Origin: Myxococcales bacterium
GTDB lineage: Bacteria; Myxococcota_A; UBA9160; SZUA-336
Direction: 5' to 3'
NCBI GenBank assembly: GCA_013215565.1
Contig: JABSQV010000060.1
Span: 1 to 57,047 of the forward strand
DNA: 57,047 bases
The notes under the pieces were generated by a model, which did no database searches, was not told the origin of the DNA, and worked only from the letters and a program-made list of their open reading frames with translations. Within the stretch, counting starts at the first letter, position 1; the number at the start of each line of letters is the position of its first letter. Positions 540-4,677 of the stretch are shown here, piece after piece. Position numbers and translations under genes: made by a program.

Positions 540-1040
540 TCAGACCTCGGGGACGTAAATCTCACCCGCGGCCCGGTGTCCGCCGGCGATCACGAGCAGA
601 CGGCCGAGCGCCAGGTACTGGCTGACCATCATCCCTAGCTCTGCGATCTCGGCATCGCTGAAATGCTCGCGAAGCTCAGCCTTGAAGGCTGCGTCGACCG
701 ACTGGAAGTCCGTCGCGAGCTTCTCGGCAAAGCGCACCGCAAGCGCGTCCCGGGGGTCGAGTTTGCGCTCGGCCTCGGGAAGGTGGATCTGGGCGATGGT
801 TTCTTCGTCGAGTCCCTGACGCGTCGCCGACGCGTAGCGAGCGAAGCGTCAGGTGTCGCAATCGTTGAGCGCCGCGACCTTGAGCCGCGCCAGTTCCTTG
901 ATCCGGCAGGGCACGACCCCTGCCTGGTGGCCGGGTCGGAAGAACGCGAAATAGCGCGCGAAGTGCTCGGGGATGAGCGCCGCCAGGTCGAGGCGGTCGG
1001 CATCGGGAGCGCTGCCGGTGGTCGGTTCGCTGCTGGCCAT
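540..1040 (-). CDS. AhpD/carboxymuconolactone decarboxylase-family protein, probable selenoprotein (Sec at TGA 849-851)
   Basis: 166 codons if the in-frame TGA at 849-851 (codon 64) is decoded. AhpD-like proteins use a CxxC pair for peroxide or disulfide chemistry. Here the N-terminal part ends RLKVAALNDCDT, then TGA, and the frame continues RFARYA and through the normal second half of the domain (EKLATDF, FSDAEIAELGMMVSQYLALGRLL) to a proper stop at 540. The TGA therefore sits on the second cysteine of CxxC, giving C61-D-T-U64. AhpD-like selenoproteins with Sec replacing a motif cysteine are known. A stable hairpin follows the TGA (separate entry). The ATG at 1040 has a strong AAGGAGG site. 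The gene lies 46 bp after the P450 gene, probably in one operon. The alternative is a nonsense mutation or sequencing error. Sec machinery is not in this window. Confidence 0.75.
819..835 (-). promoter_or_regulatory. Candidate bacterial SECIS hairpin
   Basis: On the minus strand, starting 13 nt after the TGA at 849-851, ACGCGTC and GACGCGT form a perfect 7-bp stem around a 3-nt GGC loop. Two more pairs are possible below a bulged C. The loop starts 20 nt after the TGA and has G at its first positions, as bacterial SECIS elements usually do. A different fold pairs TGACGC (846-851) with GCGTCA (817-822). This is judged by eye, with no folding energy computed. Confidence 0.6.
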
Positions 1041-1086
1041 GGTGCCTCCTTGGATCGGAGCAGCATACGGGATCTGCTCGGGCCCT

Positions 1087-2433
1087 TCAGGCGTCGAAAA
1101 GCACCGGCAGCGTGGCCGGTCCGCGTACGAGGAAGGAGCCGTGGCGCTCCACCTCGTCGATGCGAAGCGAGAGCCCGCGCAGTCGCGTCAGGATCATCTC
1201 GAGCGCGATCCTGCCTTCGAGCCGTGCGAGCGATGCCCCGATACAGAAGTGGTTGCCCAGGCCAAAGGCCAGGTGGGCGGGGGTCGGCCGGTCGATGTCG
1301 AAGCGCTCGGAGTCTTCAAACTGCGCTGCGTCGCGATTTCCGGAGGCGAGCAGGACCGCGACGATCGAGCCTCGCGGGATCGAAATGCCGCCGACCTCGC
1401 TGTCCTGCATCGCCAGGCGCGCGGTCAGCTGGATCGGGGAGTCGTAGCGGAGCGTCTCCTCGATGAGCCTGCCGACGAGTTCCGGATGACGCTGCACGCG
1501 TTCCAGTTGGTCGGGATGTCGCAGCAGTGCGAGCACGGCATTTCCGATCAGGTTCGTCGTCGTCTCAGAACCGGCCGCCAGCAGCAGGCTCGCGAACGAG
1601 ATCACCTGCTCCGGCTCCAGAATCCCCTCGCCCTCGCCGGAGTGGATCAGGGTCGAGATTAGATCCTCTTGCGGGTTCCTGCGCCGCTCGGAGATCACCT
1701 CGCCCATGTAGCTGCGGAACTCGCGAAAGAGCTCGAGGTTGCCGCCGAATTCCCCGCCCCCTCCGGGTCGGGTCGAGCCGACGATCAAAGCGGTCGACCA
1801 GCGCTTGAAGTCGTCCCGGCGGTCAGGATCGAGGCCGAGCAGGTCGGCGATCACGCTGACGGGCAGGGGATTGGCGAACTCTTCCATCAGGTCGCAGTGA
1901 CCCCGGTCCCCGAAGCGCGCGAAGAGTTCTTCGGCGTTCTTGCGGATCTGCGGCTCGAGCTCGGAAATGCGCCGCGGTGTGAAGCCGCGGCTCACGATGC
2001 TGCGCTGGCGCGTGTGCTCGGGCGGGTCGTGCGCGATCAGCGAGCCGCTGGTGGGCGCGATGTCGCCCTCGGCATTCAGGACCTGGACCTGGCTTCCCCC
2101 CATCACCTCTGACGAGAAAAGCTCGGGGTGCTTGAGGACGTAAGAAGCCTCGGCATAACGCGAGACCGTGTAGACACGAGCGCGAAAGCCGGGGCCGCGC
2201 TCCGAGCCCGGCCGCGAACGCCGCGCGCGTGCACGCTGCCGGAGCATGCGGAAGCTGTCGCGCAGACGCGTCCCCTGCTGCCGCTGCATCCGGATCGCGG
2301 TCACGACCAGGGCCAGGATCTGGCGCGGCCCGATCCGGACGCGATCTACCGCGCCCTGGCTTCGCAAGCGCGCGTAGGTCGGATAGGGATCGCGTACGAA
2401 GTCAGGCTCGAAGGGGTTGAACGCAGTCGCCAT
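1087..2433 (-). CDS. Cytochrome P450
   Basis: Heme-thiolate monooxygenase, 448 residues from the ATG at 2433, which has GGGAG 7 nt upstream; an earlier in-frame start at 2493 lacks this. Visible motifs are the I-helix AAGSET (residues 286-291), the ExxR motif EETLR (about 325-329) and the heme loop FGLGNHFCIG with the thiolate Cys397. It is a soluble bacterial CYP without a membrane anchor. Between the N-terminal DPYPTYARLRSQG and the VYTVSRYAEA strand there is an extra stretch of about 55 Arg- and Gln-rich residues that most bacterial P450s lack, which explains the length over ~400. The substrate cannot be told; steroid, fatty acid or terpenoid are all possible. It is probably cotranscribed with the CMD-family gene downstream. 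Redox partners are not in the window. Confidence 0.93.
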   Translation of the reverse strand: MATAFNPFEPDFVRDPYPTYARLRSQGAVDRVRIGPRQILALVVTAIRMQRQQGTRLRDSFRMLRQRARARRSRPGSERGPGFRARVYTVSRYAEASYVLKHPELFSSEVMGGSQVQVLNAEGDIAPTSGSLIAHDPPEHTRQRSIVSRGFTPRRISELEPQIRKNAEELFARFGDRGHCDLMEEFANPLPVSVIADLLGLDPDRRDDFKRWSTALIVGSTRPGGGGEFGGNLELFREFRSYMGEVISERRRNPQEDLISTLIHSGEGEGILEPEQVISFASLLLAAGSETTTNLIGNAVLALLRHPDQLERVQRHPELVGRLIEETLRYDSPIQLTARLAMQDSEVGGISIPRGSIVAVLLASGNRDAAQFEDSERFDIDRPTPAHLAFGLGNHFCIGASLARLEGRIALEMILTRLRGLSLRIDEVERHGSFLVRGPATLPVLFDA

Positions 2434-2643
2434 GATCGAACTCCCAGCCGGTGAACCGTATCTGAATCCCGCGCATAGCGCGAATGCCTGCACGCCGGGG
2501 GTTCTGTCGTCGGGGCCCGGCCGTGGGCGGTGTGTCTCCCGGCGGATTGCCCTCGAAGCTCCCGCGCCGTCCGCTTCCGGGTGCCGCGGAAATTAGCCCC
2601 GTGGTACCGTGCCGGGCCCCTCGAAGTGCCATTGGAGGACCCT

Positions 2644-4677
2644 GTGCGATTTAGATGGATCGGTGCAGTTCTGCTTCTCTTTGGAGCCGGGGTCGCGGGA
2701 CCGGCCACCGGCGCGGAGCCCTTCGGCTACACCGAAGCGCGCGCGCGCTGCGCGGATCGCGCACCCGAACGGCAGGCCTTCTTCGGCGAACTCCACGTGC
2801 ACACCCGTCACTCCTTCGACGCGAACCTCTGGAAGGTGCGCGGGACGCCGGAAGACGCGTATTCCTTTGCGAAGGGAGAGCCGCTCGGGCTGGCGCCGTA
2901 CACGGCCGATGGCAAGCCGACCCGAAGCATTCGTCTCGAACGTCCGCTCGACTTTGCGGCCGTGACCGATCACGCGATTTTCCTGGGACCGGTATCGCTC
3001 TGCACGACTGAGGGATCGGTCGTGTACGACTCGCCGCGTTGCCGGATCTTCCGTGGCGAAATTCCGCCGCCGCCCGGGTCACCGGCGATGATGGGCCCGC
3101 TCGCCGGGCTGCTCGCGGCTCCGCCGCCTGCCCCCGACGGGACCCAGGCGGGGGCGGCCGCGTCCCATGAAGGCAGTCCGGGCCAGCGCGTCCCGCCGGG
3201 GCTGGTGCTGAACGAGGCCCCGGAACTCTGCGGGCCGGGCGGCAGTGACTGCCGACGCGCGGTCGAGAGCGTGTGGCGCGACATCAAAGCGGCCGCCGAG
3301 CACCACTACGACCGCTCCCCGGCCTGCAGCTTTACGACCTTTCACGCCTACGAGTACACGGCGACGCCCGAACTCTCGAAGGTGCACCGGAACGTGATTT
3401 TCCGGAATGCGCAGACGCTCGCGCTGCCGATCTCGGCGATCGATGAGCCCGACTCCGCAAAACTCTTACGCCGGCTGAAGGACGAGTGTGCGGCGATCGA
3501 GGGTTGCGAGGTGCTCGCGATCCCGCACAACTCGAACCTGTCGAACGGCCGCATGTTCAGCGTGGCGTATCGCGACCAGCCGCTCGAGCTGCAGCGGGCC
3601 CAGGCGGCGCTGCGTGCGGAGCTCGAGCCGATCGCCGAGATCAGCCAGATCAAGGGCGATTCGGAGTGTAAGAACGGCATGTGGGGCGTGGCCGGTGCAC
3701 CGGACGAACTCTGCGACTACGAGAAGATCCGCGGCGAGGTCGAGGACTGCCAGGAGGGTACGGGGGCCGGCGCGCTTGCCGGACAGGGCTGCCAGTCCCG
3801 TTTGGACTTCGTCCGGTATGCTTTGATCGAGGGGCTGCGTGAAGCCGAGCGCATCGGCGTGAATCCCTACAAGCTCGGGATCGTCGCGGCGACCGACGCG
3901 CACGATGCAAACCCCGGAGACGTAAACGAGACCTCCTACGAGGGCTGGCGGGGCGCGAGCGACGCAAGTCCCACGCAGCGGCTCTCCTCCGAAGGCCGCG
4001 GACTTCTCGCGATTCGCAACAACCCGGGCGGGCTCGCGGGGGTCTGGGCCGAGGAGAACTCGCGCGACGCGCTATTCGCGGCGATGCAGCGCCGCGAGAC
4101 CTTCGGGACCAGCGGACCGCGCATGACCGCGCGCTTCTTCGCCGGCTGGGGGCTGCCGAAGGACCTGTGTGGGAATGCCGGGCTCGTGAAGCAGGGCTAC
4201 GCACGGGGGGTGCCGATGGGCGGGGACCTGCCACCTCAACCGGACGACGCGCGCGCACCCAGCTTCGTGGTGTCGGCTCTGCGCGATCCCGGTACGGCCG
4301 CGGCGCCGGGCCAGAAGCTGCAACGCGCGCAGATCGTAAAAGGCTGGGTGGGCGCCGATGGTCTCTTCCACCAGAGCGTGGTCGATGTCGCGGGCGGAGA
4401 CAACGGGGCGAGCGTCGACCCGGCGACCTGCCACGTGAGCGGTCCCGGATACGACGCGCTCTGCGGCGTCTGGACCGATCCCGACTTCGATCCCAAGCGG
4501 CGCGCCGTGTACTACTCGCGGGTCGTCGAGAACCCGAGCTGCCGCTGGAGTACGCTGACCTGCAACGCGCTGCCCGCCGCGGAGCGACCGCCCGAGTGCG
4601 CGAGCGCGGAAACTCCCAGGACCGTGCAGGAACGGCTCTGGACCTCGCCGATCTGGTACACGCCGAGCGGCGTTTAG
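2644..4677 (+). CDS. DUF3604 protein, exported, PHP-like predicted metal hydrolase
   Basis: 677 residues from the GTG at 2644, chosen because GGAGG lies just upstream and the product then begins with a signal peptide (hydrophobic WIGAVLLLFGAGVAGP, cleavage near ATGAEP). The mature protein opens with ELHVHTRHSFDA (His51, His53), the metal-binding signature shared by PHP-superfamily hydrolases. Further candidate metal ligands are in AVTDHA and VAATDAHDAN. DUF3604 proteins are widespread in marine and soil bacteria; their substrate is not established. Several Cys pairs suggest disulfides in the periplasm. It is the first gene of a three-gene set with a PpiC-type isomerase and a HupE/UreJ protein. 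The P450 gene is transcribed divergently from the same 210-bp gap. Confidence 0.88.
   Translation: MRFRWIGAVLLLFGAGVAGPATGAEPFGYTEARARCADRAPERQAFFGELHVHTRHSFDANLWKVRGTPEDAYSFAKGEPLGLAPYTADGKPTRSIRLERPLDFAAVTDHAIFLGPVSLCTTEGSVVYDSPRCRIFRGEIPPPPGSPAMMGPLAGLLAAPPPAPDGTQAGAAASHEGSPGQRVPPGLVLNEAPELCGPGGSDCRRAVESVWRDIKAAAEHHYDRSPACSFTTFHAYEYTATPELSKVHRNVIFRNAQTLALPISAIDEPDSAKLLRRLKDECAAIEGCEVLAIPHNSNLSNGRMFSVAYRDQPLELQRAQAALRAELEPIAEISQIKGDSECKNGMWGVAGAPDELCDYEKIRGEVEDCQEGTGAGALAGQGCQSRLDFVRYALIEGLREAERIGVNPYKLGIVAATDAHDANPGDVNETSYEGWRGASDASPTQRLSSEGRGLLAIRNNPGGLAGVWAEENSRDALFAAMQRRETFGTSGPRMTARFFAGWGLPKDLCGNAGLVKQGYARGVPMGGDLPPQPDDARAPSFVVSALRDPGTAAAPGQKLQRAQIVKGWVGADGLFHQSVVDVAGGDNGASVDPATCHVSGPGYDALCGVWTDPDFDPKRRAVYYSRVVENPSCRWSTLTCNALPAAERPPECASAETPRTVQERLWTSPIWYTPSGV

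Follow-up and report, generated by a model that had tools for sequence, protein, structure and literature searches.

Background

AhpD-like selenoproteins carrying a CxxU motif have been in print since 2005, when 27 AhpD-like and 4 CMD-domain sequences of this form were reported from the Sargasso Sea (PMC1088965). AhpD-like 1 and 2 selenoproteins followed from the GOS data in 2008 (PMC2398784), and a 2026 review (PMC13188914) lists both kinds in its Table 1, under TIGR01926 and PF02627. The published forms have in common with the gene described here a CMD/AhpD domain, the CxxU motif and a bacterial SECIS with a G in a small apical loop; they come from environmental bacteria and homologues with Cys are common. 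The published bSECIS model (PMC13188914) comprises a loop of 3-9 nt, a stem of 4-16 bp, a distance of 16-37 nt from the UGA, a G in the first two loop positions and an energy of at most -7.5. A term search of the main text of the deep-Sep paper (PMC12013277) returned no mention of AhpD or CMD. No literature on Sec was found for the class under its presumed name UBA9160, and Myxococcota are unmentioned in the selenoprotein and SECIS papers listed by a search, which does not imply absence from print. Among proteins of solved structure, the AhpD-like PA0269 of Pseudomonas aeruginosa reduces H2O2 weakly and has a relay formed by Glu36, Cys48, Tyr50, Cys51 and His55 (PMC3141380).

Here we describe a gene in the window, that is, the whole stretch of 57,047 nt that was analysed. 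Its codon 64, a TGA, is very probably read as Sec by means of a conserved downstream hairpin, yielding a CxxU AhpD-like protein that is likely a peroxide or disulfide oxidoreductase. The original prediction had placed it in a known class of selenoproteins, in agreement with the papers cited above. On a well-supported reading, the gene would add a class-restricted AhpD/CMD CxxU selenoprotein to this long-known kind, whose published representatives include MCB9421940.1 and MBW1767730.1.

Results and discussion

An in-frame TGA in a CMD-domain gene

The features of the locus are collected in Table 1. On the minus strand, the ORF listing has one ORF of 63 aa at 849-1040 and another of 65 aa at 540-737, in a single frame around the TGA at 849-851 and with starts 303 nt apart, as had been claimed. 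Reading through this TGA gives a protein of 166 residues with the motif NDCDTU (the context of the TGA at 851-849 being NDCDT-U-RFARYASATRQG), whose own stop is also a TGA. The announced AAGGAGG site is present upstream, at 1051-1045. Ordinary gene calling divides the gene into two fragments, both in the ORF listing and with a simple gene caller, which is one of the two outcomes that had been expected of it.

Table 1. Features of the predicted selenoprotein gene and its close surroundings (positions in the window)
Feature	Position	Strand	Description	Basis
Predicted AhpD/CMD-like selenoprotein gene	540..1040	-	ATG 1040-1038, stop TGA 542-540, 166 residues including Sec64	Translation, Pfam CMD, 34 unique TGA orthologues
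In-frame TGA, predicted Sec codon 64 (CxxU: C61-D-T-U64)	849..851	-		TGA in 34/36 unique class orthologues, TGC in 2
Cys61 codon, predicted CxxU partner of Sec64	858..860	-		TGC in class orthologues; 33/33 full-length rows
Predicted bacterial SECIS hairpin	819..835	-	7-bp stem ACGCGTC/GACGCGT, apical loop GGC	Pairing, three covarying pairs, -9.3 kcal/mol
AAGGAGG ribosome-binding site	1045..1051	-	4 nt 5' of the ATG at 1040	Sequence
Cytochrome P450 ORF immediately upstream	1087..2493	-	46-bp gap	Pfam p450 101.1 bits

The read-through protein scored 26.5 bits against the Pfam CMD profile (PF02627), over the cut-off of 23; in the six-frame genome search the same profile gave 21.8, just under it. 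In the profile search of the read-through protein, the TIGR01926 peroxidase-related enzyme family gave 24.9 bits for a cut-off of 81.8 and the TIGR00778 AhpD core domain 18.9 for a cut-off of 27.8, both too low to pass; the first of these is a difference from the published selenoproteins of the TIGR01926 kind. The best NCBIfam match was NF053654 (GroundWater_YciW, YciW-related (seleno)protein), which also matched 20 of the 21 alignment members; at 36.5 bits for a cut-off of 310, the protein is not a member of that family.

A protein database search provided 47 relatives. Across 20 aligned database homologues, the position of the TGA is occupied by Cys in 17, by Trp in one (P0002), by Arg in one (P0003) and by a gap in one (P0020). 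Together with the Cys of both class orthologues that lack the TGA, this agrees with the proposal that the TGA stands where the second Cys of a CxxC would be. Among the 23 relatives whose sequences were examined, four fragments (P0037, P0039, P0041 and P0044) end exactly one residue before the Sec site, and at least 10 consist only of the part after it (P0018, P0023, P0024, P0026, P0027, P0028, P0030, P0032, P0033 and P0035), with start points that vary. Such fragments would show how annotation splits these genes, and offer an example of selenoprotein genes lost by ordinary annotation. The Trp of P0002, the Arg of P0003 and an Arg at the site in fragment P0029, known from protein letters only, possibly correspond to mistranslated or altered TGA codons.

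Conservation of the TGA in the source class

Orthologues were collected from 90 genomes of the source class, from named GTDB-set contigs and from extra regions. A CMD relative was detected at an E-value of 1e-10 or better in 52 of the 90 class genomes. The named contigs contributed 16 close loci, with titles mostly of Myxococcota or Deltaproteobacteria, one of Spirochaeta, one of Proteobacteria and one of a plain bacterium. With a score threshold of 350, 52 rows were retained, 36 of them unique around the site; two fragments from contig edges fell below the threshold and were left out: L087, which does not reach the site, and L088, which has TGA, 6 of the 7 stem pairs and the loop GAC. Codon 64 is TGA in 34 of the 36 unique class orthologues and TGC in the two others (L023 and L082). 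The 34 unique TGA orthologues come from 33 of the 90 class genomes, our own included; counted by hand, these genomes fall under 18 codes for genus and four for family. Among 377 sampled genomes of the phylum, in each of which nine candidates at most were scored, 36 had a match at an E-value of 1e-30, all from the source class. On this sampling, the subfamily appears restricted to the class.

The TGA could be a true stop. The gene would then be a pseudogene, contain a sequencing error, or yield a short N-terminal protein plus a C-terminal one translated from a start of its own. The splitting of the gene by the ORF listing and the gene caller speaks for such a stop, as does the Arg or Trp that P0002, P0003 and P0029 have at this position. 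Against it stand the identical TGA of 34 unique orthologues in which the two halves are both kept in frame, the Cys of the sister proteins, the differing places at which the database C-terminal fragments begin, and the frozen synonymous codons and covarying pairs of the hairpin described below. We consider a true stop very unlikely. As for sequencing error in particular, a concern that the original prediction had left to resequencing, it is ruled out for practical purposes, since the TGA is shared by 34 unique orthologues.

A conserved hairpin downstream of the TGA

A perfect 7-bp stem closed by a GGC loop is present at 819-835, as predicted, the loop starting 20 nt 3' of the TGA. Set against the bSECIS model (PMC13188914), the hairpin has a loop of 3 nt, a stem of 7 bp, a loop sequence GGC with G first, a distance of 20 nt and an energy of -9.3 kcal/mol for the hairpin alone, and it agrees with the four published constraints. 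In the window, a perfect 7-bp stem with a 3-nt loop at that exact distance follows only 1 of the 1144 TGA trinucleotides on both strands (613 + 531). With a looser hairpin test 12 of the 1144 passed, including the gene's own, and none of the other candidates in the window was found by eye to resemble a redox motif. The 17-mer of the hairpin occurs a single time in the 3.8-Mb genome.

All 7 stem pairs are formed in 33 of the 34 TGA orthologues, including a G-U pair in the case of L052, and 6 of 7 in the remaining one (L039); the loop is GGC in all 34. Stem variants include ATGCGCA-GGC-TGCGCAT (L036 and L041) and ACGCGCA-GGC-TGCGCGT (L061). The two TGC orthologues form 3 and 4 of the 7 pairs at the same place, and the hairpin is missing there in both; L082 has an alternative stem of 6 of 7 pairs with a 5-nt loop, a few bases off.

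Covariation was calculated on 35 rows (the 34 TGA orthologues and L088), of which 32 are distinct. In this set 99.1% of the stem cells are paired and three of the seven pairs show changes on both sides. The covariation score of 0.183 was matched by none of 500 shuffles, and controls slid along the alignment gave 0 to 0.031. Weaker measures did not stand out: the number of pairs changed on both sides was as high in 27 of 500 shuffles and the number of further pair types in 181 of 500. Codon usage was also compared over the 33 full-length rows, where the share of the modal codon is 0.965 over the six hairpin codons versus 0.666 over 58 other conserved codons. By this measure, the hairpin freezes synonymous codons.

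Folding of the sequence after the TGA gave a divided answer. Without the UGA, the predicted stem is the minimum-energy fold of our sequence in RNAfold, with a mean pair probability of 0.98, but when the UGA is included a different fold of the 53-mer is preferred (-19.0 kcal/mol, z -0.77). The minimum-energy fold contains at least 6 of the 7 stem pairs in 30 of the 34 orthologues without the UGA and in 27 with it; it is a different structure in 7 of 34 with the UGA, our own sequence included, and in 4 of 34 even without it. The unconstrained fold of our 53-mer, in which the hairpin is not favoured, was dropped as support. It is the comparative evidence that we regard as decisive for the predicted hairpin, a SECIS with unusually good support. 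One SECIS core with compensatory variants also makes a clean test set for SelB recognition.

Selenocysteine machinery

The source genome (3.8 Mb in 154 contigs, 91.1% complete) contains selA (516.8 bits), selB (284 bits), selD (334.6 bits) and selC, the tRNA-Sec (71.4 bits, anticodon TCA), so that the four genes on which the original prediction depended are all present in the same genome. In the class, selA is present in 84 of 90 genomes and the six genomes without it have no TGA orthologue. Co-occurrence with selA was rejected as a discriminator, being too common: selA is found in 33 of 33 genomes with a TGA orthologue, yet in 51 of the 57 others too. What the class does provide, against this background of widespread selA, is a well-supported selenoprotein subfamily together with naturally occurring Cys orthologues that can serve as controls because the hairpin is missing from them.

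In genetic code table 4, TGA is translated as Trp. Under an altered code of this sort the TGA would be a sense codon like any other, for Trp or Gly, and P0002 does have a Trp at the site, albeit one known from protein letters only. But the gene itself terminates in TGA, the genome has selA, selB, selD and a tRNA-Sec with anticodon TCA, and the sister proteins mostly have Cys at the site and not Trp. This reading is even less credible than a true stop, and the insertion of Sec at codon 64 is a strongly supported prediction.

As a separate observation, the selD gene of the source genome (L018, G000:C71:168828-169751) has an in-frame TGA in the motif GGUARK and probably encodes a Sec-containing SelD.

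Predicted fold and putative active site

The AlphaFold2 model, built with Cys in place of Sec from an alignment of 21 sequences, is all-helical with a pLDDT of 87.5. Its top solved fold matches are PA0269 (2ijc, 2o4d), 7xw1 and Atu0492 (2gmy), at TM 0.71-0.74 and with E-values of 3.4e-5 to 1.8e-4 for 2ijc, 2gmy and 7xw1; an AhpD-like fold is thereby matched, and the profile search was concordant. PA0269 is the best-ranked PDB match, with 29% identity and TM 0.71-0.74 over its chains (2O4D, 2IJC), and 7XW1, titled as AhpD from P. aeruginosa, groups with it as a near fold match. The spacing Glu36-Cys48-Cys51 of PA0269 is that of E49-x11-C61-x2-U64 here. PA0269 differs in that its second Cys is replaced here by the predicted Sec, and its Tyr50 and His55 by Thr63 and Arg68. 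Mycobacterium tuberculosis AhpD (1GU9, 1KNC) has a catalytic Glu and a CxxC, here CxxU, on a two-helix motif (PMC3141380); it differs in being a weak fold match (E 0.45-0.71), in having the motif elsewhere in the chain (PMC3141380) and in a relay His that is absent here.

In the alignment, the residues equivalent to the relay are E49, C61, T63, U64 and R68, with T63 at the place of Tyr/His and the invariant R68 at the place of His. With Arg68 and Thr63 replacing the relay His and Tyr/His, the activity may differ from that of the AhpD relay enzymes, and the His-to-Arg change may affect substrate and rate.

In the mechanism that we propose, SelB with Sec-tRNA(Sec) would attach to the hairpin with its GGC loop when the ribosome is positioned at the UGA, and the full-length protein would fold as an all-helical AhpD-like protomer. 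Sec64 would stand where AhpD-like enzymes have their second active-site Cys (Cys133 in M. tuberculosis AhpD and Cys51 in PA0269), Cys61 where they have the first and Glu49 where they have the relay Glu. Peroxide could then react with Sec64, and Cys61, as the putative resolving residue, would join it in a selenenyl-sulfide that is in turn resolved by a reductant.

By analogy with these enzymes we infer a peroxidase function. The protein could also be a selenoprotein with another CMD/AhpD-fold reaction, for instance a reductive dehalogenation like that of the debrominase Bmp8, or serve as an adaptor in the manner of thioredoxin. The fold matches include two Bmp8 structures, 6ohj and 6ohi, at E 0.007-0.014 and weaker than PA0269; the relay His is Arg68, and neighbours that vary between genomes indicate no pathway. 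On the other hand, PA0269 comes closest in fold, along with further proteins putatively related to peroxidases or to antioxidant defence, PA0269 itself reduces H2O2, if weakly (PMC3141380), and the E-C-U spacing is kept. We regard a non-peroxidase activity as a serious possibility that stays clearly below an even chance.

Genomic context

The gene had been described as part of a P450 operon. A P450 ORF does lie 46 bp upstream on the same strand and is possibly cotranscribed with the selenoprotein gene here, but this placement is not conserved in the other loci. We compared the neighbourhoods of 40 loci, including duplicates of the same contigs, with a simple gene caller (L128 gave no gene calls), and a P450 at the same place was not conserved among them. 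Among the nearest genes just one other member of the P450 cluster was seen, on the opposite strand and 970 bp away from the TGC orthologue L082. Near other copies we found an MFS transporter, a weak DUF2079-like protein or a PilY1-type protein. Since neighbours differ between orthologous loci, we rejected the P450 as a guide to function, and for the same reason no pathway is drawn from genomic context. A DUF3604 gene (2530-4677) adjoins the P450 ORF, and in three genus-level contexts (our own genome, g31 and g42) the called genes nearest to the selenoprotein gene include a DUF3604 gene; the genome has six full copies of DUF3604 and no link to the selenoprotein gene is claimed.

Evolution and related CxxU genes

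In a quick tree of 58 rows whose root was not fixed, 33 TGA sequences form one clade with P0002 and P0003 (SH-aLRT 100), adjoined by Cys proteins including L023. The TGA sequence L051, with identical hairpin letters, falls outside this clade; it sits with Cys forms, L082 included, where the tree is poorly resolved. Its grouping with L082 and P0014-P0021, which mostly have Cys, could reflect an ancestral Sec or an exchange between paralogues.

A broader scenario can be put forward tentatively, its chances being a little short of even. This would be a class-restricted Sec subfamily in which the AhpD relay was rebuilt as Glu-Cys-Sec-Arg in place of Glu-Cys-Cys-His, within a Myxococcota class that has several CMD/AhpD-like CxxU selenoproteins. 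The constraint of the hairpin would dictate the YASATRQ sequence, and the letters of L051 would point either to an ancestral Sec with losses or to an exchange of a Sec cassette between paralogues.

Further genes of this kind were noted along the way. A second CMD-like gene in the source genome (L139, G000:C92:14337-14573) has an in-frame TGA in GCPFU; a possible SECIS stem, CTCTGCC-GTG-GGCAGAG, was seen by eye after it, and the RNAfold minimum is a different hairpin. More distant CMD relatives in the class have TGA at the aligned Cys position in 10 of 12 cases (L090, L092-L099 and L101) and TGC in L091 and L100, and in several of the 10 with TGA other stems with a G-containing loop were seen by eye after it. 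The class seems rich in AhpD-like selenoproteins. Finally, a MAG contig titled as Chloroflexi (L069) encodes a CMD protein 33% identical to ours, with a TGA in CNYU followed by a stem, identified by eye, of CTCTCCG-GGG-CGGAGAG.
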